39,231 nucleotides of DNA, from contig NBMH01000013.1 of the NCBI GenBank assembly GCA_002084875.1, positions 1 to 39,231 of the forward strand. Direction: 5' to 3'. Both the position numbers and the translations under genes were made by a program. The notes under the pieces are model-generated. The model was not told the origin of the DNA. It made no database searches and was given only the letters and a program-made list of their open reading frames with translations. Source of the stretch: Anaerolineaceae bacterium 4572_78. GTDB lineage: Bacteria; Chloroflexota; Anaerolineae; 4572-78. Numbering within the stretch: the first letter of the stretch is position 1; each line of letters begins with the position of its first letter. Positions 16,255 to 36,707 of the stretch are shown here, piece after piece.

Positions 16255-17268
16255 TTATCGCCATTTGGCTACAGGACCATGTTTCTGGAAGTTATTTGTA
16301 ACTAATACCAAATCTATTATATCAATAACACCATCTGTATTGAGGTCTAATAAGGGGTCATTCAGATGATAACTATTTGCTATTTGAACAAGGTCAAAAA
16401 TATCGACAATATCATCACTATTTACATCACCAGCAAAAAGGATCATGTCTCCTAAAGTGGCAGTACCTACTCCATCCAAACGAGTGGAAACATCAATTTT
16501 AGCATATAGATAGCCCGGTGCTTTGATGGTTAAAATATCATTACCGTCTGAATAGAATGTACCATCAGGGCTGGTATTGATGATATTGCCACTGTTATCT
16601 ATCAAAGTGATATGACTATAGTTATATCGCCCTTCTAATTGAACTCGACCACTTACAGCACCACATGCGTCTGTTGTGATGGCAACTCCATCAACAACCT
16701 GCACAGTAATCTGTGTGCCTACCATAGGTATAAGTACATTTTTAATGTCAAGGGCAGAACGTCCCACACCAACCTTTTCCCATATAATCTCGACTAAATT
16801 CATGTCGCCGCTTACAGTAGATGTGCCAAGAACAGCAGCTGCAAATTCAATTTTCCCATTCACATTATCCACCTCGTTAAGTGCGATAAATGGGTTTTGA
16901 TTGGCGAATGAGCTACCCAACTTAATTTGTACTCCGTTTTGATTTGGGTCCACATCCACAACATTGACAATACTTGGGTCAAACTCAATTTCAAATTGAA
17001 AACCTTTTACACCATTAGTATTAGTTAATTTCAATGTTGTTTGTTGACTACCAGAACATATATTTACTTCCGGCGGGTCAAATACAACTGTATGACTACC
17101 AACAATAGGTGTTGGATTCACAGGTGTCGGTGTTGTACCCACAGGTGTCGGTGTTGTACCCACAGGTGTCGGTGTTGTACCCACAGGTGTCGGTGTTGTA
17201 CCCACAGGTGTCGGTGTTGTACGAATCCACAGGTGTCGGTGTTGGTACTGTCCCGTCGATAACGACAT
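16255..17268 (-). CDS. Cohesin- and dockerin-type modules, C-terminal part of a frame-broken amidase gene
   Basis: In frame after the break this ORF begins with repeats of TTPTPVG. A cohesin-like beta module follows (VVFDPPEVNICSGSQ, FQFEIEFDPSIVNVVDV; about residues 60-195), then a short carboxypeptidase-regulatory-like domain (GAVSGRVQLEG). The end is a type I dockerin with two calcium loops, DVNSDDIVDIFDLVQIA and DLNTDGVIDIIDLVLVTN. Such modules mediate calcium-dependent protein assembly and also occur on non-cellulosomal surface proteins. There is no signal peptide. The upstream ORF at 17096-18790 supplies one and ends in the same repeat tract in the wrong frame, so both are one gene. The first 15 residues called here read through the upstream frame's DNA and are probably not real. 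Confidence 0.8.
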   Translation of the reverse strand: MSLSTGQYQHRHLWIRTTPTPVGTTPTPVGTTPTPVGTTPTPVGTTPTPVNPTPIVGSHTVVFDPPEVNICSGSQQTTLKLTNTNGVKGFQFEIEFDPSIVNVVDVDPNQNGVQIKLGSSFANQNPFIALNEVDNVNGKIEFAAAVLGTSTVSGDMNLVEIIWEKVGVGRSALDIKNVLIPMVGTQITVQVVDGVAITTDACGAVSGRVQLEGRYNYSHITLIDNSGNIINTSPDGTFYSDGNDILTIKAPGYLYAKIDVSTRLDGVGTATLGDMILFAGDVNSDDIVDIFDLVQIANSYHLNDPLLDLNTDGVIDIIDLVLVTNNFQKHGPVAKWR

Positions 17269-18790
17269 TAACTGATTTTGTTATGTTGGTACACGTTCCA
17301 AAGGTATCATGAGTTGCGTTTACCTTGAAGGTGTGCTTGCCTGATACTGTTGTATCACGAAATACACCTTGATATCTACCTTTTTGGTTCTCCAAATCAA
17401 AATAACCGAGTGTAGCAGTTGAAGTTTCAACAGAAACATCGGCGGTTACACTTGCTCCACCCAATGGAACTCCATTAATATCAGCCACCACTACCACAAA
17501 ATTAATCGTATCATTCAAGTTATATTCCGATTTGTCGAATATAATATCGGTCACTTGGCATTGATTGGCACCGTCACAATTAACTCGGTCAGATACTGCT
17601 TGCCGAAGCCAAGGCATCCAAGTATTGTAAATAATACTGCCTGGTGAGTATGTGTTAGTCACATCTCTAGCACCTGATACACGATAGATATTTTTGCCAT
17701 GATAATTTGCAATTTCTTGGGAGTCGAGTCCATTTTGTCCCAATTTCCAAGAGATTAATTCTACTCCTTTGTTCATCATGATTTGGCGTGGTTGGACGTT
17801 TGATATACCATACTCCAAACAATTTCCATAACATCCGATGAATGCTAAACCAAGCGAGTTTCTATTGTTGGGGATATGTCTTCCAATAATATCTTTTTCA
17901 CCATTTTGGCTACCGGCTCGTCCTTCATAAATTTTCCCTTCAGGGTCAATTAGATAGTTGTAGCCAATATCACCCCAGCCTAATACATTGGTATGATAGT
18001 TCCATACTGAACGCACTACGGTTGGCCAATCAGTAGTTGGACTGTTTTTGGTAACAGTATGAGCAATAATCACATGAGTTACATCAGTTTCATAAGGTGC
18101 CCAGCGAGGGCTATTTTGACCATCAGGAGAACCCCATTCTGTACGACTGATAATACTAGGTTTTTCAGCAGGACAAACATTCAAAGCCGCCGCATTTGCC
18201 GCAGGCAAATCATCGTTAGTGGGACCTTGACTGGTATCGTTGAAAATCAGTGTTAATTCATCTAGGGTAGTATCACCCATTAAGGTTAATCGAATTTGGA
18301 TATGAACCTGCCCTTCATTGCCAAGCCAAACCATAGAACCGCTATAATCACTATCAGAGATAGGATTAAAGGTTACAGGGCTTTCAATCCATTCTTGCCA
18401 TACTGAACCATTATCACTTGTTCGTATTTCTACTTTAACATTATCGCTACTTGCTTTCCAAGTTGGGATAATATCAGTAGTAATTCCGAGTGGTGATTGA
18501 ATAGGCTCACTGGTGTAAGTCCCTTGAGTAGCACCAGCACTAACTGCTAAGCTATTCGCCACCACATCAAGATTTGTCAGTTCGCCTTGTGATTGGAAAT
18601 AGAGCGTGGTTAAGCTCACTTGGCGTGACTGAATGGTGTCATAAGTGCTAGCAGTAAAGAAAAGACCATCATCAGGCTCCTGAGCAAAAGAAATGTTTGC
18701 CCAGAAAAGAACTAAAACAATACTTAAACTAAAACACAAAATTGGATTTAGTCTATAAAAAATTTGATTAAACGTTGTACGTAAATACAT
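17096..18790 (-). CDS. Secreted PGRP/N-acetylmuramoyl-L-alanine amidase, N-terminal part of a frame-broken gene
   Basis: The ATG at 18790 is preceded by GGAGGTAATA; an earlier ATG at 18802 would put that site inside the gene. A signal peptide ends near ANISFAQ. Residues about 60-200 form a beta region. An amidase_2/PGRP domain follows: SRTEWGSPDG, HVIIAHTVT, YNYLIDPEGKIYEGR, LGLAFIGCYG and ARDVTNTYSPG. His in IIAHT fits a zinc ligand of amidases that cut the MurNAc-L-Ala bond; the ACRDVTxxxCPG-type segment has Ser for the usual Cys and retains no His, so activity is uncertain. An Ig-like domain precedes the linker VPTPTPV. The frame then falls into YNTDTCG repeats, a shifted reading of TPTPVGT, and stops. 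A 4-bp insertion in the repeat explains the shift. Confidence 0.85.
   Translation of the reverse strand: MYLRTTFNQIFYRLNPILCFSLSIVLVLFWANISFAQEPDDGLFFTASTYDTIQSRQVSLTTLYFQSQGELTNLDVVANSLAVSAGATQGTYTSEPIQSPLGITTDIIPTWKASSDNVKVEIRTSDNGSVWQEWIESPVTFNPISDSDYSGSMVWLGNEGQVHIQIRLTLMGDTTLDELTLIFNDTSQGPTNDDLPAANAAALNVCPAEKPSIISRTEWGSPDGQNSPRWAPYETDVTHVIIAHTVTKNSPTTDWPTVVRSVWNYHTNVLGWGDIGYNYLIDPEGKIYEGRAGSQNGEKDIIGRHIPNNRNSLGLAFIGCYGNCLEYGISNVQPRQIMMNKGVELISWKLGQNGLDSQEIANYHGKNIYRVSGARDVTNTYSPGSIIYNTWMPWLRQAVSDRVNCDGANQCQVTDIIFDKSEYNLNDTINFVVVVADINGVPLGGASVTADVSVETSTATLGYFDLENQKGRYQGVFRDTTVSGKHTFKVNATHDTFGTCTNITKSVNVVIDGTVPTPTPVDSYNTDTCGYNTDTCGYNTDTCGYNTDTCGYNTDTCESNTYCW
17120..17246 (-). repeat. 21-bp minisatellite coding for a Thr/Pro linker, with a 4-bp insertion
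   Basis: The unit acaggtgtcggtgttgtacc plus c (21 bp) repeats at 17120, 17141, 17162, 17183 and 17204 without mismatch. The next unit boundary carries an extra gaat (17223-17226) before ccacaggtgtcggtgttgg. Removing those four bases would restore one continuous Thr-Pro-Thr-Pro-Val-Gly frame between the amidase and cohesin parts. Confidence 0.92.
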
Positions 18791-18961
18791 TATTACCTCC
18801 ATACATCTAAAAATATTAACTTAATCTTGTTTCAATTTTAACACTAAATGGAGGTAATCCTCAACGATAGCAACGCTGATTTCAGTTGGGTAAAAATGTC
18901 TAATAGGGTTTGAGTATTAACACGGAATGAGATATTGTTCCATCTAAAATAATACATTATC

Positions 18962-20017: not shown

Positions 20018-22156
20018 TTACTTCTTAAATATAGTCACAGCTGTACCTTCCGTAGTAGCTGAGCCACTTAAACCACCAACATTTACTGCCCCATTAATGT
20101 CAAAAACTTTCGTCCATGTCCCATCAGGCAGACTGACATCATAATTATTTCCAGGATTATAAACTATGATGATTTCATCCCAGCTATCGCCGTTGGCATC
20201 AGCATTGATTTGAGAAACAACCACTTTACCATCGCGATAGGTATTCATGTTATTGTTGATTTCATCCCATGTATTGAGACGGAAACCAGGGTGTGCTTTT
20301 CGTAAGGCTATCAAATCCTTGTGATAATTGAACATATCGGCATTTTGTTCCTTCCATTCCCAGCGAATCATGTTGTAATCATCGGGTGCGTTGTAGCTGT
20401 TATGAGCATACTCCCAATCGCCATTGTAGACTTTGGTGCGTAGCATTTCATCACCAGCGTGAATGAACGGAATACCTTGTGAGGTTAAAACGATACCTTC
20501 TCCAAATCGGACAACTCGCTTGCCATAGTCGTTATCTTCACCACTATGTTTAACTTTATCCCACAAACAATAGTTATCATGAGCGGAGATATAATTCACC
20601 GATTGTTCGGGGTCAAAGGCAAACATTGGGTCCCACATGTTTGACAGCGTGTTGGTACTCTTGGTATGAAGGATACCGCCACGCGAGCCAACTTCAATTT
20701 CCCATGACTTATCACCATAGTTGAACATGTAACCACGACCTGTGCCGTCGTTATCGCCCTTGATTGCTTCACGGAATTTGCCATTAAATACGCCCATGCG
20801 ACCTGATGCCATTGCTGGTACATTACCCATGCGTACTTTTTGATTTTCAATTGGGTCTCCCCAATAACCGTTCCATGGTTCGCCGTACATCAGCAAATTG
20901 CGGCTGGCGTACTTGCCATTAAGGTGTTCGCCCCAACTATTTACTGCTTCATAATGGAAAATGCCCATGAGGTCAAAGCGGAAGCCGTCAACATGATAAT
21001 TTTCAATCCAATACTCAAGCGAGTCTTGAATCATACGGCTGACCATCTGGTTGCCAGTGTCAATACCATTGCCACAACCTGAGTCGTTATTACCAGTGTA
21101 ATATTGACCAGTAATATTTTCGAATACTGAATCGTCAAAGGTGTGATTATAAACCACATCCATGATAACTCGAATCCCATTCTTATGAAATTCGTTAATC
21201 ATGGTTTGCAATTCCTTAACCCGATTTTCATAATCATTCGGGGTAAGTGAATATTGTTCTTCGGGAACATTAAAGTTAATTGGGTCATATCCCCAGTTAT
21301 ATTGTGGGGTAGAAAAATCGTAGAAGGGCAGAATTTGGACATGAGTTACGCCCAATTCTTTAAGGTGGTCAATACCTGTTGCTAAACCGTTATAGGTTGT
21401 GCCTGTTTCGACCATGCCCAAGAATTTACCACGCTTATTAGCAGAAACGCCTGAACTATCATGGAGGGTGAAATCACGCACATGTGCTTCGTACACAACT
21501 GCATCTTCACGTTCTATCAAAGTTGGATGGGATGCCCAACCGCCGTCGGGTTGGATGGAAGCCATATCCAAAACAACATTTCTGTTTGTACCTGGTACAA
21601 CCATCGCTCCATAGGGGTCCCGAACATCGTTGCCGTTGATTTTGAGTTGATACTCAGCTAATTTCAAATCGCCTGAAACGGTAACTTCATAAATATTGGT
21701 ATAGCCATCAAAATCAGCTACATGTTGCAAATTATGGTTATTACCATCAACATAGACCACAACATTACTGGAGTCAGGTGACCAAATTCTAAAAGTCGTT
21801 GATGATGGAGTGTATAATGCACCTAAGCCAACACCACCACCACTAGAGCCTCCACCTGGTTTTGTATTATGCCATGAGCCATCATACCACCATTCACCTG
21901 TAGTACGACTTAAGTCATCAGTTTGATTACTACCTGAATTGAAAATCAAGTTAATACTTGTTTCATTGAAACTATCACCATACCAGCGTTCAGAAGTTGG
22001 AGTTGCTGTTCCTACAGGATTGTGGTCATACCACTGATTATCCATATACCACCATTCACCTGTAGTACGACTTAAGTCATCAGTTTGATTACTACCTGAA
22101 TTGAAAATCAAGTTAATACTTGTTTCATTGAAACTATCACCATACCAGCTGACCAA
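20018..22156 (-). CDS. Pullulanase-type GH13 enzyme with starch-binding repeats (probable C-terminal part of a frame-broken amylopullulanase)
   Basis: Two 54-residue units (from about residues 4 and 58) hold the C-terminal half of a CBM25/26-like starch-binding module (TSINLIFNSGSNQTDDL). A CBM48-like N domain (about 111-200) and a GH13 barrel follow with the type I pullulanase motif YNWGYDP (286-292), nucleophile Asp395 in GFRFDLMGI, Glu426 in MYGEPWNG and Asp527 in ISAHDNYCLWDK. It should cut alpha-1,6 links in pullulan and starch. The ORF has only a TTG start, no ribosome site and no signal peptide, although the substrate is extracellular. It overlaps the end of the secreted amylase ORF within a binding module. 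It is most simply the second half of one amylase-pullulanase gene. Confidence 0.88.
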   Translation of the reverse strand: MVSWYGDSFNETSINLIFNSGSNQTDDLSRTTGEWWYMDNQWYDHNPVGTATPTSERWYGDSFNETSINLIFNSGSNQTDDLSRTTGEWWYDGSWHNTKPGGGSSGGGVGLGALYTPSSTTFRIWSPDSSNVVVYVDGNNHNLQHVADFDGYTNIYEVTVSGDLKLAEYQLKINGNDVRDPYGAMVVPGTNRNVVLDMASIQPDGGWASHPTLIEREDAVVYEAHVRDFTLHDSSGVSANKRGKFLGMVETGTTYNGLATGIDHLKELGVTHVQILPFYDFSTPQYNWGYDPINFNVPEEQYSLTPNDYENRVKELQTMINEFHKNGIRVIMDVVYNHTFDDSVFENITGQYYTGNNDSGCGNGIDTGNQMVSRMIQDSLEYWIENYHVDGFRFDLMGIFHYEAVNSWGEHLNGKYASRNLLMYGEPWNGYWGDPIENQKVRMGNVPAMASGRMGVFNGKFREAIKGDNDGTGRGYMFNYGDKSWEIEVGSRGGILHTKSTNTLSNMWDPMFAFDPEQSVNYISAHDNYCLWDKVKHSGEDNDYGKRVVRFGEGIVLTSQGIPFIHAGDEMLRTKVYNGDWEYAHNSYNAPDDYNMIRWEWKEQNADMFNYHKDLIALRKAHPGFRLNTWDEINNNMNTYRDGKVVVSQINADANGDSWDEIIIVYNPGNNYDVSLPDGTWTKVFDINGAVNVGGLSGSATTEGTAVTIFKK
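21884..22149 (-). repeat. Two identical 104-bp direct repeats (starch-binding module)
   Basis: The stretches 21884-21987 and 22046-22149 are identical over 104 bp and lie 162 bp apart, a whole number of codons (54). They begin ataccaccattcacctgtag and end actatcaccataccagc. The identity points to a very recent duplication. The frame break between the amylase and pullulanase ORFs lies at the outer edge of the second copy. Confidence 0.92.
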
Positions 22157-23721
22157 CCTTTGTAATGAATGGTAATATTAGCGTTCGGGTCAGGTGTTGC
22201 TGTTGGTACTGGAGTAACAGGGGTTGCATTTGCAGCATAGAAAGCTACGGCTGAACCAGCTGCTACAGTGATATTAGCGGTACCATCGCCATTTACGGTT
22301 ACGGTATTGCCTGTACAATTGCCGTTGTCCAAATCACCGCTGATGATGTCGCAATATGTACCAGCTGCCATGCCAGTTTGGAAGCTTTGACTTAACTCGC
22401 TACCTTCTTTATTTATCGCCACAAATCCCTTGTCACCTCGACTAAAGGAAATTTGGTCATTGCCATTGTCCCACCAATTAGAGACGGGTTGACCACTGGT
22501 TATATTACGGAACATGACCATATTAGCAATTGGTCGCCAGCGATGCTCGCATACCCAACCGCGCACACTATCATCAGTGTGTCCGAAACAACCAAGTGAT
22601 TCCACACTTTGTATTGACCCATCGACATTTTGTGGGGGACCTTGGTCGCTATCATCAAATTCGTAGCTAGACATGACCTTCGGATAGCCATAAGGCCAAG
22701 CAAGCATAAATATGTTGGTTAAATCATACAGTGAACTGTCTTTATAAGTGATGACATGTCCACCGCCGCCATGACCACGTTGGTTGTCATGATTGTCTAC
22801 AAAAACAACACCTTTATCATCAGGCATGAAGCCCCAGTCTACGCCAAAATTGCTTAGCCATGACAGTTGTCCACTGTAGAAAGCTTCGCTAATTTTGACA
22901 CTATACTTAAACTCAGTTACATCACCATTTTGGAAATATAAGTCGGCAGTAATTGGCTCGCCGCCTTGGTCAATCACTTCTTGGAAAATGTAAGGGTCGC
23001 CATCAAGTTTAGCAATGATAGCGTTAATATCACCTGTTGCCATGTGCTTAGAGGCATCCAAACGAAAACCTGCTACGCCAAGACTAATGAGGTCATTCAT
23101 GTAAGCCGCAATTTTATCTTGCACATAACCTGTATCGGTTGCCAAGTCGGTCAAGTTGACCAATTCGCAATTTTGTACTTCCCATACATCTTGGTAATTA
23201 CTAATATCATCATTACCATTGCGTCCACAATGATGGAAATTATCAGTACCATATCCTGTTGATGGGTAATGATATTCCCAATATTGAGTACCATTGTATC
23301 CCGAGCTAGAACCTACGCCAGTCATGTGATTGATGATTGCATCTACGTAGATATCAACACCAACCGCATTACAGCGTGATACCATGTTGGTAAATTCGGC
23401 CCGTGTGCCACTGCGTGACTCAATTTCATAACTAACGGGTTGATAGCGGAGCCACCATGGATAAGAACCACCTTGATTAAACCAAGCATGTTCCATTGGT
23501 GGAGAAACTTGAACCGCAGAGAACCCTTTGGGACCTAAAACATCTTCACATTCTTGAGCAATGTCTGTCCACTTCCATTCAAAGAGATGAACAAATGCTG
23601 TACGAGGAGCCTCTTGAGCTTTGACCACTTCATCTTGAGGCAGGCTCAAGGTGGCGATTAGAGGCACCATTAAAACAAGTAAAAATTTTATTAGAGAACG
23701 AAAATTAAAACGTGATTTCAT
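22108..23721 (-). CDS. Secreted animal-type alpha-amylase (GH13), frame broken at the C-terminal binding module
   Basis: A signal peptide ends near VVKAQEA. The catalytic domain is of the animal type (GH13_24/32): VHLFEWKWTDIAQECE, GFSAVQVSPP and YVDAIINHM. It has nucleophile Asp222 in GFRLDASKHM, Glu248 in FQEVID, Asp312 in VDNHDNQRGHG and a Gly-rich loop RGHGGGGH. It hydrolyses alpha-1,4 links of starch outside the cell. A C-terminal beta domain is followed by the linker TPVTPVPTATPDPNA and the first strand of a starch-binding module (ITIHYKGW), after which the frame runs out. The pullulanase ORF continues in another frame at exactly this module. AAAGGAG precedes ATG 23721. Animal-type amylases are scattered in bacteria and may reflect transfer. 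Confidence 0.9.
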   Translation of the reverse strand: MKSRFNFRSLIKFLLVLMVPLIATLSLPQDEVVKAQEAPRTAFVHLFEWKWTDIAQECEDVLGPKGFSAVQVSPPMEHAWFNQGGSYPWWLRYQPVSYEIESRSGTRAEFTNMVSRCNAVGVDIYVDAIINHMTGVGSSSGYNGTQYWEYHYPSTGYGTDNFHHCGRNGNDDISNYQDVWEVQNCELVNLTDLATDTGYVQDKIAAYMNDLISLGVAGFRLDASKHMATGDINAIIAKLDGDPYIFQEVIDQGGEPITADLYFQNGDVTEFKYSVKISEAFYSGQLSWLSNFGVDWGFMPDDKGVVFVDNHDNQRGHGGGGHVITYKDSSLYDLTNIFMLAWPYGYPKVMSSYEFDDSDQGPPQNVDGSIQSVESLGCFGHTDDSVRGWVCEHRWRPIANMVMFRNITSGQPVSNWWDNGNDQISFSRGDKGFVAINKEGSELSQSFQTGMAAGTYCDIISGDLDNGNCTGNTVTVNGDGTANITVAAGSAVAFYAANATPVTPVPTATPDPNANITIHYKGWSAGMVIVSMKQVLT

Positions 23722-32980: not shown

Positions 32981-33625
32981 CTAGTCCACCGACTCCGCTA
33001 AAGAAATCAATGTTTCAGTATCATACTTTCCAACAAGCATGTAAGTCATTTCACCTGTTGCCCAAATGATAGTGACATGGTCGTTGTCCGACATTGTCAT
33101 GACTACTCCTGAATTACCACTGATACTAATTTCTGTGGCATCAATATCTTCACCAATGGGAATGGGCAAAATCATGGTATTTTCCCAATCAATAGTACTT
33201 CCCAAAGCAATAGCCTCTATTTTTGGCATGCCTAACAATTGCAATCCCGCTACACCGACAGTAGCTAAATCTAAGTCATCAGGATATTCAAGGTGTGGTG
33301 TGGGCATTTGCACGAACATCAGTTGAGGTGCCTCATGATTTGAGTGAGCGGGTCGTTTACCGCGTTGTTTGCTACGAGGACGTTCACCTTGCATTGAGTT
33401 CAAATCGTCCAAATCAGTTCCCCACATTTGTCCCAGCATGGTCGGCTTGTTAATGACAATTGGTGTATCATCTAACGAAGCTGGCAACTCAATCTCAATT
33501 TTAGCCGATTGGAAAACGGATTGCAATAGTTCACGGTCAAGCATCAAACTAACAATTGATTCTCCATCCACCATTGCCTTAAACTCATCGCCAACATCGG
33601 CAGGTAATTCGGGGATGGATGACAC
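32981..33625 (-). CDS. Extracytoplasmic part of a frame-broken anti-sigma factor
   Basis: The frame encodes 214 residues without signal peptide or membrane segment. It contains repeated acidic and Pro segments (SSIPELPADVGDEF, SLMLDRELLQSVFQ), a basic stretch (RPRSKQRGKRP) and a beta-rich C-terminus (HVTIIWATGEMTYMLVG). In Chloroflexota anti-sigma proteins the region after the membrane helix has this make-up. The frame overlaps the end of the N-terminal ORF (33544-34098) by 82 bp in another frame. The joined product would read PVRAMAGQ and then TVIENEVSSIPELP. No independent ribosome site is seen, so this is the second half of one gene. Confidence 0.7.
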   Translation of the reverse strand: MSSIPELPADVGDEFKAMVDGESIVSLMLDRELLQSVFQSAKIEIELPASLDDTPIVINKPTMLGQMWGTDLDDLNSMQGERPRSKQRGKRPAHSNHEAPQLMFVQMPTPHLEYPDDLDLATVGVAGLQLLGMPKIEAIALGSTIDWENTMILPIPIGEDIDATEISISGNSGVVMTMSDNDHVTIIWATGEMTYMLVGKYDTETLISLAESVD

Positions 33626-34098
33626 TTCATTTTCAATAACTGTCCTGCCATTGCCCGTACGGGAGCAAAGCTAAACAAAATACCGACTACTGCCACGATT
33701 GCAAACGCTGCCAACCATGGCTGATACTGTTTGATAAAACGATTATTCATAAAGAACATTATCCTTTCTTGAATGTGTGTTAAAAAATAAATAAATTGTT
33801 CAACGGAACGAAAAACCGAAGCATCTAGCATAAATTGTAACTCGTCAATGATTGACATGTTAGGCTGGCTCAATTGATGTTGAAACCGATTCCAGCCTGC
33901 ATGGGAAGAGCCCCGCACTGTATTAGGTATAGCTAGGCAATCTAATGCCATGTTTACCGTTTCCGAGTCATAGTTTAGCAAATCAAGTAATGATTGTGCT
34001 TCGACTGACTCGGCTAATAATTGTCGGACTGTCACCATGTCTTGTGGTGATAGTTCTTCATCTAAATAGGCTCGTAATATTGTTTCATCTAAGTGCAT
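33544..34098 (-). CDS. Anti-sigma factor, N-terminal part of a frame-broken gene
   Basis: The N-terminus MHLDETILRAYLDEELSPQDMVTVRQLL is a typical anti-sigma helical domain, in the position of the zf-HC2 domain but without its zinc-binding His/Cys set. A single membrane helix, WLAAFAIVAVVGILFSF, is followed by APVRAMAGQ, the usual boundary. The rest (LLKMKCHPSPN to the stop) is out of frame and unlike the family. The start lies 9 bp after the stop of the ECF sigma gene, with GAGGATGGATA before ATG 34098, so the two form a sigma/anti-sigma operon. Truncation after the membrane helix may leave sigma binding intact but remove the external sensing part. Confidence 0.75.
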   Translation of the reverse strand: MHLDETILRAYLDEELSPQDMVTVRQLLAESVEAQSLLDLLNYDSETVNMALDCLAIPNTVRGSSHAGWNRFQHQLSQPNMSIIDELQFMLDASVFRSVEQFIYFLTHIQERIMFFMNNRFIKQYQPWLAAFAIVAVVGILFSFAPVRAMAGQLLKMKCHPSPNYLPMLAMSLRQWWMENQLLV

Positions 34099-34107
34099 TA
34101 TCCATCC

Positions 34108-34686
34108 TCATGGCTTTTTTTGGCTTTGACCGTCCTCATATCGCTGTCGAAACTTTCGTTCTGCCCGTGTCAATAACGAACCAATCGAACTTGGAGCGAC
34201 ATTCAGCACTGTTGCCAGTTCCTTGTATGACAAGCCCGCATGCCGTAATAGCAATAATTTTGCATCACGTGGTTTCATGCCAGCTAAGATTTGACGTACT
34301 TTGTTTTGTTCGTCATGGTTTTGGGCAATATCGGCTGGGTCAGGTATGGCATGATTAAGAGAGAAGATTGACAAAAACTTATCATGCCATGCCTGTCGCC
34401 GTTTTCGACTGCGAATGGCATTATAACCCGTATTCATAGCCACTCGATATAACCAACCTACGATATTGCTGGTATCCCTGTCAATCTGTAATCGTTGCGG
34501 AGACATGTACAATTTGATAAAGATATGTTGCGTCATGTCTTCCGCATCGTCATGGTCGCCGAGTAATCTGTATAATATTGTGTAAATCCGTCGGTAATGG
34601 CGATGAAAAAAAGCCTCATAAGCTATTTCATCTCCAGCTTGGACTTGACGTAATAACATTGCATCGCTTGTCGCTTCGGTTATCAT
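34108..34686 (-). CDS. ECF-type RNA polymerase sigma factor
   Basis: The protein is 192 residues. Region 2 spans about 10-85, with YEAFFHRHYRRIYTILYRLLGDHDDAEDMTQ-type sequence (the D-A-E-D core binding motif) and GWLYRVAMNTGYNAIRSRKRR. Region 4 at the C-terminus reads MKPRDAKLLLLRHAGLSYKEL and NVAPSSIGSLLTRAERKFR, the helix-turn-helix that reads the -35 element. It directs RNA polymerase to a small regulon, normally held back by the anti-sigma factor encoded 9 bp downstream. That gene is frame-broken here. It is the first gene of the pair; nothing like its own target promoter was recognised upstream. Confidence 0.9.
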   Translation of the reverse strand: MITEATSDAMLLRQVQAGDEIAYEAFFHRHYRRIYTILYRLLGDHDDAEDMTQHIFIKLYMSPQRLQIDRDTSNIVGWLYRVAMNTGYNAIRSRKRRQAWHDKFLSIFSLNHAIPDPADIAQNHDEQNKVRQILAGMKPRDAKLLLLRHAGLSYKELATVLNVAPSSIGSLLTRAERKFRQRYEDGQSQKKP

Positions 34687-34751: not shown

Positions 34752-35525
34752 TTAATCATTGCATTTCAAACACAAACTTTCTGCACCTATCGCCGCATGA
34801 CAATGATTGCCCTCATTATGTACCCAATCAAATCCTGCACAATGAGCTAAGGCACATAAACACGAATAGTTATTTCGGTCATTTGGCCATAAAGTTAAAT
34901 CAATAGCACGCCCCTCAAAATGCAACGAGGCTCGACTATCCAAATCAGGTTGCTCAAGATTATGTTCCAAACGAGAATCATACGCTTCTGTGACACGTAA
35001 TGTCATTTCACCATCCCATTCATCTTTTACAAATTCGTTGATACGACTCACAGGGAGAAGCATGGCTGGGTGCATTAAATTATCCTCTTGGTTGTATGGT
35101 GGAATTTCCTCTCCCTTAAAAATAATGGTCGAGTCAAAATTACCTACCAACATAAAATAAGCACATGAGTCTGGTTCAATACGACATACCATCCTACCTG
35201 CCGCCGACCTTTGCGTTTCTGTATAACTACCTCGAGCTGAAACATGCTGGTTAGTATCCAAGTGCATGATTGGACATGATGCCGACAATTTATTTGGTGT
35301 AGGGGTAGGGGTTTTATCGCCGAATACCGCCGTTAGCGTCGCGTAAAATATAGCTGCCTTAATACTGGTTGGCGTTAACGTAGATGTTGAGGAAGGTAAT
35401 TTAGATTTAGATGGAGGTGGAGCCTCACAACCACTTAATATTATTCCAACAAGAAATATGATAAACAGGTAATGAAATCTATCTTGGGATGTAGAGAATG
35501 AGTTTGATTTTGAGATAGAGTGCAT
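34752..35525 (-). CDS. Lipoprotein with Hedgehog-N-like (M15-type) zinc peptidase domain
   Basis: ATG 35525 gives a lipoprotein signal with lipobox ILSGC (Cys33); a longer frame from 35603 would overlap the ATPase gene. After a Ser/Thr/Pro linker and two Cys-rich stretches, the last 90 residues read MTLRVTEAYDSRLEH, then SLHFEGRAIDLTLWP, then AGFDWVHNEGNHCHAA. This matches the animal Hedgehog N-terminal signalling domain: His202 and Asp209 (spacing 7) and His243 stand where Sonic hedgehog has zinc ligands His141, Asp148 and His183, and Glu238 matches the Glu of its vestigial peptidase site. The fold is shared with D-Ala-D-Ala peptidases (M15), so peptidoglycan peptide cleavage outside the membrane is the likeliest role. 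Bacterial Hedgehog-like proteins are known from a few phyla. Confidence 0.82.
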   Translation of the reverse strand: MHSISKSNSFSTSQDRFHYLFIIFLVGIILSGCEAPPPSKSKLPSSTSTLTPTSIKAAIFYATLTAVFGDKTPTPTPNKLSASCPIMHLDTNQHVSARGSYTETQRSAAGRMVCRIEPDSCAYFMLVGNFDSTIIFKGEEIPPYNQEDNLMHPAMLLPVSRINEFVKDEWDGEMTLRVTEAYDSRLEHNLEQPDLDSRASLHFEGRAIDLTLWPNDRNNYSCLCALAHCAGFDWVHNEGNHCHAAIGAESLCLKCND

Positions 35526-35553: not shown

Positions 35554-36309
35554 CTACAATTTCCTAACGATTTCTCGCTCAACTTTAATAATATCACTTT
35601 CATTTTTGAGCAAAACGCTCAAAGTATTTTCAACAGTTTCAGGGTCTAACTTGGAAGCATTTAATTTGAGTAATGCTCTTGTCCAATCAATTGTTTCACC
35701 AACAGAAGGATGTTTTTTCAAATCCAACTTACGAATATGATGTACCAATTCAACAGCTTCTTTTGCCAATTGTTGGGTTAGTTCAGGCACTTTGTTATTA
35801 ACAATTTGTAATTCCTGTTCCAATGATGGATATGTTATAAAGAGAAATTCGACATCAGCTCGGTCAATTTCATCAATTAAGAGGACAGCTGGTTTGATAG
35901 AGGTAAGAGCTTGTAAAAGTGGGCGCGGCAACAAAAAATGCCTTGAGAAAAATACGGATTCTTCTGCGATGATGCGTTGTGCCGCTTCTTCAAGTGATGT
36001 TACTTCGCCAACAACTTTTTTCAGTTGGTCACGCAATAATTGTGTATAAAGCATTTGCTTGGCATATTCCCACTCATACAAAGCCCTACTCTCATCTAAT
36101 CCTTCATAACATTGCAGTCGAATCAATTGTCGCCCGGTCACTCCCGCCCAAACTTTGCCCAATTCTGTTTTGCCCACACCTGCTGGACCTTCACACAAAA
36201 TTGGCTTACCCAATTCTTCTGCCAAGTAGACTACGGTAGCAATGCGTTCAGAAGCGACATACTGCCGCTTAGCTAGTTTTGTTTTAATTTTTTCGGTGAT
36301 TTTTGTCAT
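35554..36309 (-). CDS. MoxR-type AAA ATPase with internal deletion
   Basis: The Walker A is GPAGVGKT (41-48) and Walker B is VLLIDE (142-147) followed by IDRADVEF. Flanks such as LIRLQCYEGLDESRALYEW and ITYPSLEQELQIV are typical of MoxR ATPases. Family members have about 50 residues between DRADVEF and the YPSLEQEL helix, carrying sensor 1 (a TSN strand) and the arginine finger (LKRRCLY). Here the two join directly near residue 155 (about 35847). The frame is kept, but ATP hydrolysis should be lost or altered. The Trypco1 gene lies 47 bp upstream on the same strand and the Hedgehog-like gene directly downstream. MoxR ATPases usually work with VWA proteins, which are absent here. Confidence 0.8.
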   Translation of the reverse strand: MTKITEKIKTKLAKRQYVASERIATVVYLAEELGKPILCEGPAGVGKTELGKVWAGVTGRQLIRLQCYEGLDESRALYEWEYAKQMLYTQLLRDQLKKVVGEVTSLEEAAQRIIAEESVFFSRHFLLPRPLLQALTSIKPAVLLIDEIDRADVEFLFITYPSLEQELQIVNNKVPELTQQLAKEAVELVHHIRKLDLKKHPSVGETIDWTRALLKLNASKLDPETVENTLSVLLKNESDIIKVEREIVRKL

Positions 36310-36356: not shown

Positions 36357-36707
36357 TTATTGCCCTTCTTTTTCCTCCTTGGTTTTTTGGGCATGCCAAC
36401 TTAGAGAAATTTTTAACTGGGCATCTGTACTTTCAGCTTTAGCTAACATCGCTCCTGATTCACTGTCAAACTTGATAGCGAAGTCAATCTTAGCCACATT
36501 GGGTCTTTCTTTTAACGAGTCTAATGTTTCTAAAACCGAATTAGCTGTCATGCGAATGATGTTTAAACCATGATTAAAACTGTTATTTACAGACTGTTTA
36601 TCAACTTCATTTTTTGTAGATATGAAGCCAACATCAGTTTTTAATTTTCTGACTTCAATAATTATTTTACCTTCATCTCCAATAGTGGATTCAATATAAT
36701 CTGACAT
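36357..36707 (-). CDS. Trypco1 (CU044_2847-type) domain protein
   Basis: The protein is 116 residues. It has an N-terminal beta hairpin (ESTIGDEGKIIIEV), a central helix (FNHGLNIIRMTANSVLETLDSL) and a last pair of strands with KIDFAIKFDSESGAMLAKAES and LKISLSW. The pattern FAIKFDSESGAMLAKA matches the trypsin-co-occurring domain 1 (Trypco1), a small domain found beside trypsin-like proteases and NTPases in predicted bacterial conflict or signalling systems. Here the neighbour is a MoxR-type ATPase 47 bp downstream; no trypsin-like gene is in the window. AAGGATAATT precedes ATG 36707. A MITE-like element lies upstream. Confidence 0.7.
   Translation of the reverse strand: MSDYIESTIGDEGKIIIEVRKLKTDVGFISTKNEVDKQSVNNSFNHGLNIIRMTANSVLETLDSLKERPNVAKIDFAIKFDSESGAMLAKAESTDAQLKISLSWHAQKTKEEKEGQ

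Follow-up and report, generated by a model that had tools for sequence, protein, structure and literature searches.

The gene at positions 34752 to 35525 of the window, the whole 39,231-nucleotide stretch of DNA from Anaerolineaceae bacterium 4572_78 that was analyzed, encodes a predicted lipoprotein that belongs, with near certainty, to the same family as the signal domain of animal Hedgehog proteins. It falls in a clade of Chloroflexota Hedgehog lipoproteins that stands apart from the side of the tree shared by the classical bacterial Hedgehogs (bacHhs) and the animal sequences, and Hedgehog genes of its subclade are repeatedly found in operons for extracellular contractile injection systems (eCIS). 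This clade, this operon context, and the finding that the adjacent MoxR/Trypco1 gene pair is not conserved and includes an internally deleted MoxR are new here. From its residues, fold, and location, the protein is likely to be a peptidase that acts on peptidoglycan, and we propose, with a confidence that stops a little short of even, that it is an envelope-anchored zinc peptidoglycan peptidase in the service of an eCIS.

Bacterial Hedgehogs, also written BacHhs, have been published before (Roelink 2018, PMC6027127; Jaegers and Roelink 2021, PMC8052667), as the sequence-only reading of this DNA had noted. The 2018 paper reported them from about a dozen bacteria and assigned no function. The main texts of the two papers mention neither Chloroflexota, nor Paenibacillus, nor bacterial lipoproteins, and injection systems are not mentioned in the main text of PMC8052667. 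Hedgehog, in turn, goes unmentioned in the eCIS papers PMC8213781, PMC12923769, and PMC11297309, and the open-access papers searched yielded neither a report combining Hedgehog with eCIS nor an activity assay of a bacHh.

Family, Fold, and Architecture

The gene and the three parts of its product are as follows.

34752..35525 (-): gene for a putative Hedgehog-type (HH_signal/M15-like) zinc peptidase lipoprotein, 257 aa plus stop
35427..35525 (-): predicted signal peptide with lipobox L-S-G-C at its end, residues 1-33 (sequence)
35277..35426 (-): Ser/Thr/Pro-rich linker, residues 34-83 (sequence; predicted disordered)
34755..35276 (-): Hedgehog-N domain, residues 84-257 (Pfam, model, Foldseek)

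The protein matches the Pfam family HH_signal (PF01085) over residues 91-244 with an E-value of 2.4e-23 and 83 bits (cutoff 22.1), whereas the top M15 family, PF08291, reaches E 0.21 and 12.2 bits, below its cutoff of 23.2; PF01085 outscores all M15 families by about 70 bits. A phmmer search against PDB sequences gave significant scores for Hedgehogs only (Dhh 2.5e-16, Shh 4.5e-16; Dhh, Shh, and Ihh overall about 1e-15 to 1e-16). A first structure model, built from ten Chloroflexota sequences, was of moderate quality (pLDDT 69), and its best 38 Foldseek matches were all Hedgehog chains. With 27 bacterial sequences as input, AlphaFold modeled the domain with high confidence (pLDDT 91.9, pTM 0.89), and 38 solved Hedgehog chains again ranked first, with E-values of 1e-14 to 3e-11 and TMt up to 0.92. 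After these come M15-type wall enzymes, namely the LysECD7 endolysin, the VanY-like LdcB, and ChiX, which share the LAS zinc-site layout with the window protein but resemble it weakly in structure (E 0.02-0.2) and score far lower in sequence. The sequence-only reading had preferred a Hedgehog-N domain to an ordinary VanY or DacB peptidase, and the better score to a generic M15 family that it had named as refuting did not appear; a generic VanY/DacB identity is ruled out by profile scores and fold alike. Contamination with animal DNA is also ruled out, as the nearest sequences are from Anaerolineae and the gene is that of a bacterial lipoprotein.

The Hedgehog domain forms the C-terminal part of the protein (84-257 of 257), behind the signal peptide and lipobox, and an extracytoplasmic location is predicted. 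Cys33 is the predicted lipidation site; it is present in every row of a ten-row alignment, and a lipobox-like Cys is found in the majority of Chloroflexota Hedgehog members. Within the linker, residues 36-77 have pLDDT below 50. Beyond the lipobox, cysteines occur at positions 84, 114, 121, 222, 224, 229, 242, 252, and 255; the lipobox, Thr/Pro linker, and extra Cys described earlier are all in place. An alternative in-frame ATG lies upstream at 35603, and because it would leave about 59 residues ahead of the lipobox Cys, the start at 35525 is the likelier one. A scan for promoters and terminators gave matches no better than chance.

Zinc, Catalytic, and Calcium Residues

Residues are numbered below as in the window protein, with mouse Shh equivalents in brackets.

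35106..35111 (-): calcium-site Glu139-Glu140 (Shh E90, E91), by alignment
35082..35084 (-): calcium-site Asp148 (Shh D96), by alignment
34977..34988 (-): calcium-site Glu180 and Asp183 (Shh E127, D130), with Arg at the Shh D132 position, by alignment
34929..34961 (-): loop 189-199 with an insert of about 8 aa, by alignment; in the aligned rows, confined to Chloroflexota
34920..34922 (-): zinc ligand His202 (Shh H141), invariant in all aligned rows
34899..34901 (-): zinc ligand Asp209 (Shh D148), invariant in all aligned rows
34812..34814 (-): catalytic Glu238 (Shh E177), invariant in all aligned rows
34797..34805 (-): His241-Cys242-His243, with His241 (Shh H181) and zinc ligand His243 (Shh H183), both His invariant in all aligned rows

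The H-x6-D and H-x-H zinc motif of the bacHh/M15A Hedgehog subgroup and its catalytic Glu are complete (His202, Asp209, His243, Glu238, His241, and His188). The three zinc ligands had been picked out from the sequence together with a nearby Glu, which is Glu238 close to the His-x-His, as had the phrases SLHFEGRAID and AGFDW, which lie at residues 200-209 and 230-234. All 37 bacterial rows keep H141, D148, H183, E177, and H181; for H135 the one exception is L030. The calcium-site acids, whose absence would have told against a Hedgehog, are identical to those of Shh at five of six positions by alignment (E90, E91, D96, E127, and D130), the sixth, D132, being replaced by Arg at a position that varies widely in bacHhs. 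Some relatives have lost more of this site while retaining the zinc triad and catalytic Glu: E90, E91, and E127 are replaced in L027 and L030, and E90 in L031 and L032.

The Chloroflexota clade is further marked by eight conserved cysteines with fixed spacing. Since C84 and C229 are missing together in L031 and L032, the pair suggests itself as a candidate disulfide.

In comparison with the N-domain of the animal Hedgehogs (Shh, Dhh, and Ihh), the window protein shares the fold, the zinc triad, E177, H181, H135, and most of the calcium residues, but it is only 40% identical to Shh, has Arg in place of D132, and lacks both the Hog/intein part and the receptor-binding N-terminus. Like the bacHhs, it has a C-terminal PF01085 domain with all of the zinc and catalytic residues and most calcium residues, and a predicted extracytoplasmic location. 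It differs from them in that its clade forms a branch of its own, carries the eight conserved cysteines and the insert, has lower identity to Shh, and is associated with a lipoprotein anchor and an eCIS context, neither of which is found in the main texts of the published bacHh papers.

Distribution and Phylogeny

Across about 85,000 species, 36 loci were found, a lower bound because the scan relies on two conserved peptides. Around half belong to Anaerolineae, with the remainder in Polyangiaceae, Paenibacillus, Alphaproteobacteria, two Actinomycetota, Acidobacteriota, Sumerlaeota, Bacteroidales, and others. The actinobacterial loci L042 and L049 encode very large proteins (1170 and 1724 aa) with a C-terminal Hedgehog domain, and the bacHh of Pararhizobium gei (L013) is carried on a conjugative plasmid, where a gene with an N-acetylmuramidase domain adjoins it.

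Besides the window genome, PF01085 occurs in 2 of 400 genomes sampled evenly across the phylum and in 9 of 61 relatives. None of the five other genomes of the same family has the gene, so its distribution is patchy, and an even spread through the family is contradicted. A viral origin was rejected, with no tblastn match in phage records and none confirmed in viral contigs, and so was a plasmid origin, for which a single distant match, to a Pararhizobium plasmid, was found.

One branch, with 99/99 support, splits the Chloroflexota Hedgehog sequences from 17 classical bacHhs plus two animal sequences; the placement of two long-branched rows (L047 and L051) is unsure. The window sequence sits inside a Chloroflexota subclade of 13 rows (99/98). 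The other five Chloroflexota sequences are paralogues, which in three genomes reside together with a copy of the subclade kind. A topology in which animals join the Chloroflexota clade fails the AU test (p 0.007), although the root and the animal placement are provisional, being based on only two animal sequences without Hedgling or a cnidarian. Identity to Shh is 35-43% across the window protein's clade and 49-58% for most classical bacHhs. The phylogeny called for by the sequence-only reading places the protein in this Chloroflexota clade and does not group it with animals, and most classical bacHhs match the animal domain more closely than it does. If animals gained the domain by transfer, the position of their sequences among the classical bacHhs would narrow the field of candidate donors.

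Genes Around the Hedgehog Gene

Two neighboring genes, both outside the proposed system, had been singled out as part of the context.

35554..36309 (-): MoxR-like AAA, 49 residues deleted in frame (Pfam, homologue alignment)
36357..36707 (-): Trypco1 domain protein (PF19493, E 5.9e-14)

The MoxR-like gene precedes the Hedgehog gene with a gap of 28 nt. Its product lacks 49 residues that are found in nine of nine aligned homologues, an exact in-frame deletion of 147 nt that begins just past Walker B and takes in sensor 1 as well as the arginine finger. A gene judged CoxE/vWA-like by eye follows most of the nine homologues, and none is present beside the window AAA gene. The MoxR-vWA-Trypco conflict system (Kaur 2020, PMC7159879) offers a parallel from which the window differs in the internally deleted MoxR, the missing adjacent vWA-type gene, and the absence of the pair near the Hedgehog genes of relatives. 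The two genes are indeed adjacent to the Hedgehog gene in the window, as first described, but the pair is found near no other Chloroflexota Hedgehog locus. Because of this and the MoxR deletion, the pair reveals little on function and a functional link is rejected; the eCIS genes of the relatives are the more informative neighbors.

Directly downstream of the Hedgehog gene lies a gene for an ECF sigma factor (34108-34686, -), followed by an ORF (33544-34098, -) whose N-terminus resembles an anti-sigma factor. Elsewhere in the window, a cohesin/dockerin-like protein with GTTPTPV repeats (16258-18802, -) adjoins an Amidase_2 protein, and two overlapping ORFs (20021-23721, -), the first of which matches the amylase family and has repeats (WYGDSFNETSINLIF...), may represent a split or frameshifted gene.

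Association with Contractile Injection Systems

In the window subclade, the Hedgehog gene is often found inside or at the edge of eCIS operons. Among close relatives this applies to the following loci, together with L014 and L025.

Roseilinea (L026/L065-L066): sheath, tube, spike, baseplate J, FHA-like proteins, giant FG-GAP-type protein, Hedgehog, AAA+WHD, eCIS_core
Bin_81R (L019/L067): Hedgehog, lipoprotein, AAA, eCIS_core, sheath, tubes
CFX7 (L020/L068-L069): eCIS_core, sheath, tube, spike, gp25, baseplate J, FHA-like, FG-GAP, Hedgehog
Thermoflexales (L024/L072-L073): gene order near that of Roseilinea

Of these labels, Phage_sheath_1, CIS_tube, GPW_gp25, Baseplate_J, Phage_base_V, eCIS_core, and WHD+AAA were confirmed with Pfam, the remaining ones being assigned by similarity or by eye. 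At least three Chloroflexota lineages, and also Paenibacillus, have the Hedgehog gene inside an eCIS operon, pointing the same way as the genes around it and closely spaced with them. In Paenibacillus (L035/L070-L071 and L044) it lies downstream of baseplate genes in a similar operon, and its product has no lipobox. The L035 protein contains WQQSFGNSAVLKYL, which fits the LQ..GN.AV-type motif known from eCIS_core proteins; in 914 kb of DNA this motif has 23 matches, every one of them within an eCIS-cluster or eCIS_core locus.

Among the 61 relatives, eCIS_core is present in all seven genomes with a subclade copy, neither of the two with only the other paralogue, and 15 of the 52 without a Hedgehog. 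Fisher's test gives p 0.0005 for the subclade and p 0.008 for all Hedgehog-positive genomes (7 of 9), values that are only indicative because the subclade split is post hoc, the MAGs compared are incomplete and related to one another, and genome size tends to be greater where a Hedgehog is present. One fragmentary copy (G044) was put in the subclade by its similarity to L027 and not by the tree, and the genome of L032, which is outside this sample, has a subclade copy and no eCIS_core match.

The window itself contains no eCIS homologues, and its Hedgehog gene is unlinked to any. The same genome does have a sheath gene on contig C56 and an eCIS_core gene on contig C154; near the eCIS_core and spike genes of the latter lies the gene for a 1526-aa protein of SufB type that matches intein-splicing domains three times (L075, 4656-9233). 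A role in eCIS offers the best lead, and clade membership and genome co-occurrence are what would connect the window copy to it. The paralogues reside in other operons (L021-L023 and L028-L029), beside SH3/PD40-type surface proteins and not eCIS genes, and there are classical bacHhs without eCIS neighbors, so the Hedgehog domain is not specific to eCIS.

Proposed Function

The window organism makes peptidoglycan, since its genome has mraY (273 bits). In the proposed mechanism, the protein would be exported via Sec and tethered by the lipidated Cys33 to the cytoplasmic membrane, on its outer side. The flexible linker would then bear a zinc peptidase domain of the Hedgehog LAS/M15 type, which appears catalytically competent by its residue content and is probably calcium-stabilized and disulfide-clamped. 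Its most likely action would be to cleave the peptide stems or cross-links of peptidoglycan near the membrane. As subclade genes often lie in eCIS operons, we suggest that the producer's own wall would thereby be opened or trimmed to allow the contractile particle to be anchored, passed through, or released. This step is modeled on the lysis-cassette endopeptidases of other phage-tail-like particles, such as the cassette with an endopeptidase beside Afp (PMC12961389). The likeness lies in the proposed opening of the producer's wall and in the position of the gene near a particle operon in relatives, whereas the present protein is Hedgehog-type and lipid-anchored, and its lysis role is a proposal.

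A possible, though somewhat less favored, alternative is that the protein cleaves peptidoglycan in a general envelope or scavenging role and takes no part in injection, the eCIS neighborhood in relatives then being a matter of hitch-hiking in large, variable surface-gene clusters. The surface-protein neighbors of the paralogues, the absence of eCIS_core from both genomes that have only a paralogous copy, and the unlinked window copy are all consistent with this, as is the report of rhizobial bacHhs near wall enzymes and trypsins (PMC8052667). Hitch-hiking sits less comfortably with the co-directional, tight placement of the gene in eCIS operons of several lineages, and with the co-occurrence of subclade and eCIS_core in seven of seven genomes.

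It is unlikely that the protein acts as an antibacterial effector, delivered by the eCIS or displayed at the surface, against the peptidoglycan of other cells rather than the producer's wall. Peptidoglycan-degrading eCIS toxins are on record (PMC8213781), and effectors are typically encoded at the 3' end of the operon or near eCIS_core (PMC12961389), the Hedgehog gene too being positioned near eCIS_core. The Chloroflexota proteins, including that of the window, nevertheless have a signal peptide and lipobox and should therefore leave by Sec and be anchored rather than loaded into the tube; for a lipid-anchored protein, wall opening or anchoring on the producer is a better fit than cargo. Cargo fits the Paenibacillus form better, as this lacks the lipobox and, in L035, has the leader motif.

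Least probable of all, and by a wide measure improbable, is a non-catalytic, metal-dependent binding or signaling protein of the pseudo-enzyme kind suggested for animal Hedgehog, which has no accepted protease activity and a zinc site termed pseudo-active (PMC6027127), given that the bacterial sequences retain all the catalytic residues, among them the Glu and the two flanking His, while the calcium residues drift, and that no bacterial Patched homologue is reported (PMC6027127).

Significance

The sampling of 36 loci, the distinct lipoprotein clade, and the repeated eCIS context turn the function of bacterial Hedgehogs into a concrete and testable hypothesis, in which the envelope-anchored peptidase proposed here bears both on the bacterial role of Hedgehog domains and on whether Hedgehog is a peptidase. 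The relatives that have lost calcium residues and kept the zinc and catalytic ones (L027 and L030, and in part L031 and L032) are natural variants for studying calcium regulation. More broadly, though this is less likely than not, Hedgehog-type peptidases may be recurrent parts of contractile injection systems, opening the wall from an envelope anchor in Chloroflexota and serving as cargo associated with the particle in Paenibacillus. If this is true, the so far unexplained bacterial Hedgehogs would gain a role in injection between organisms.
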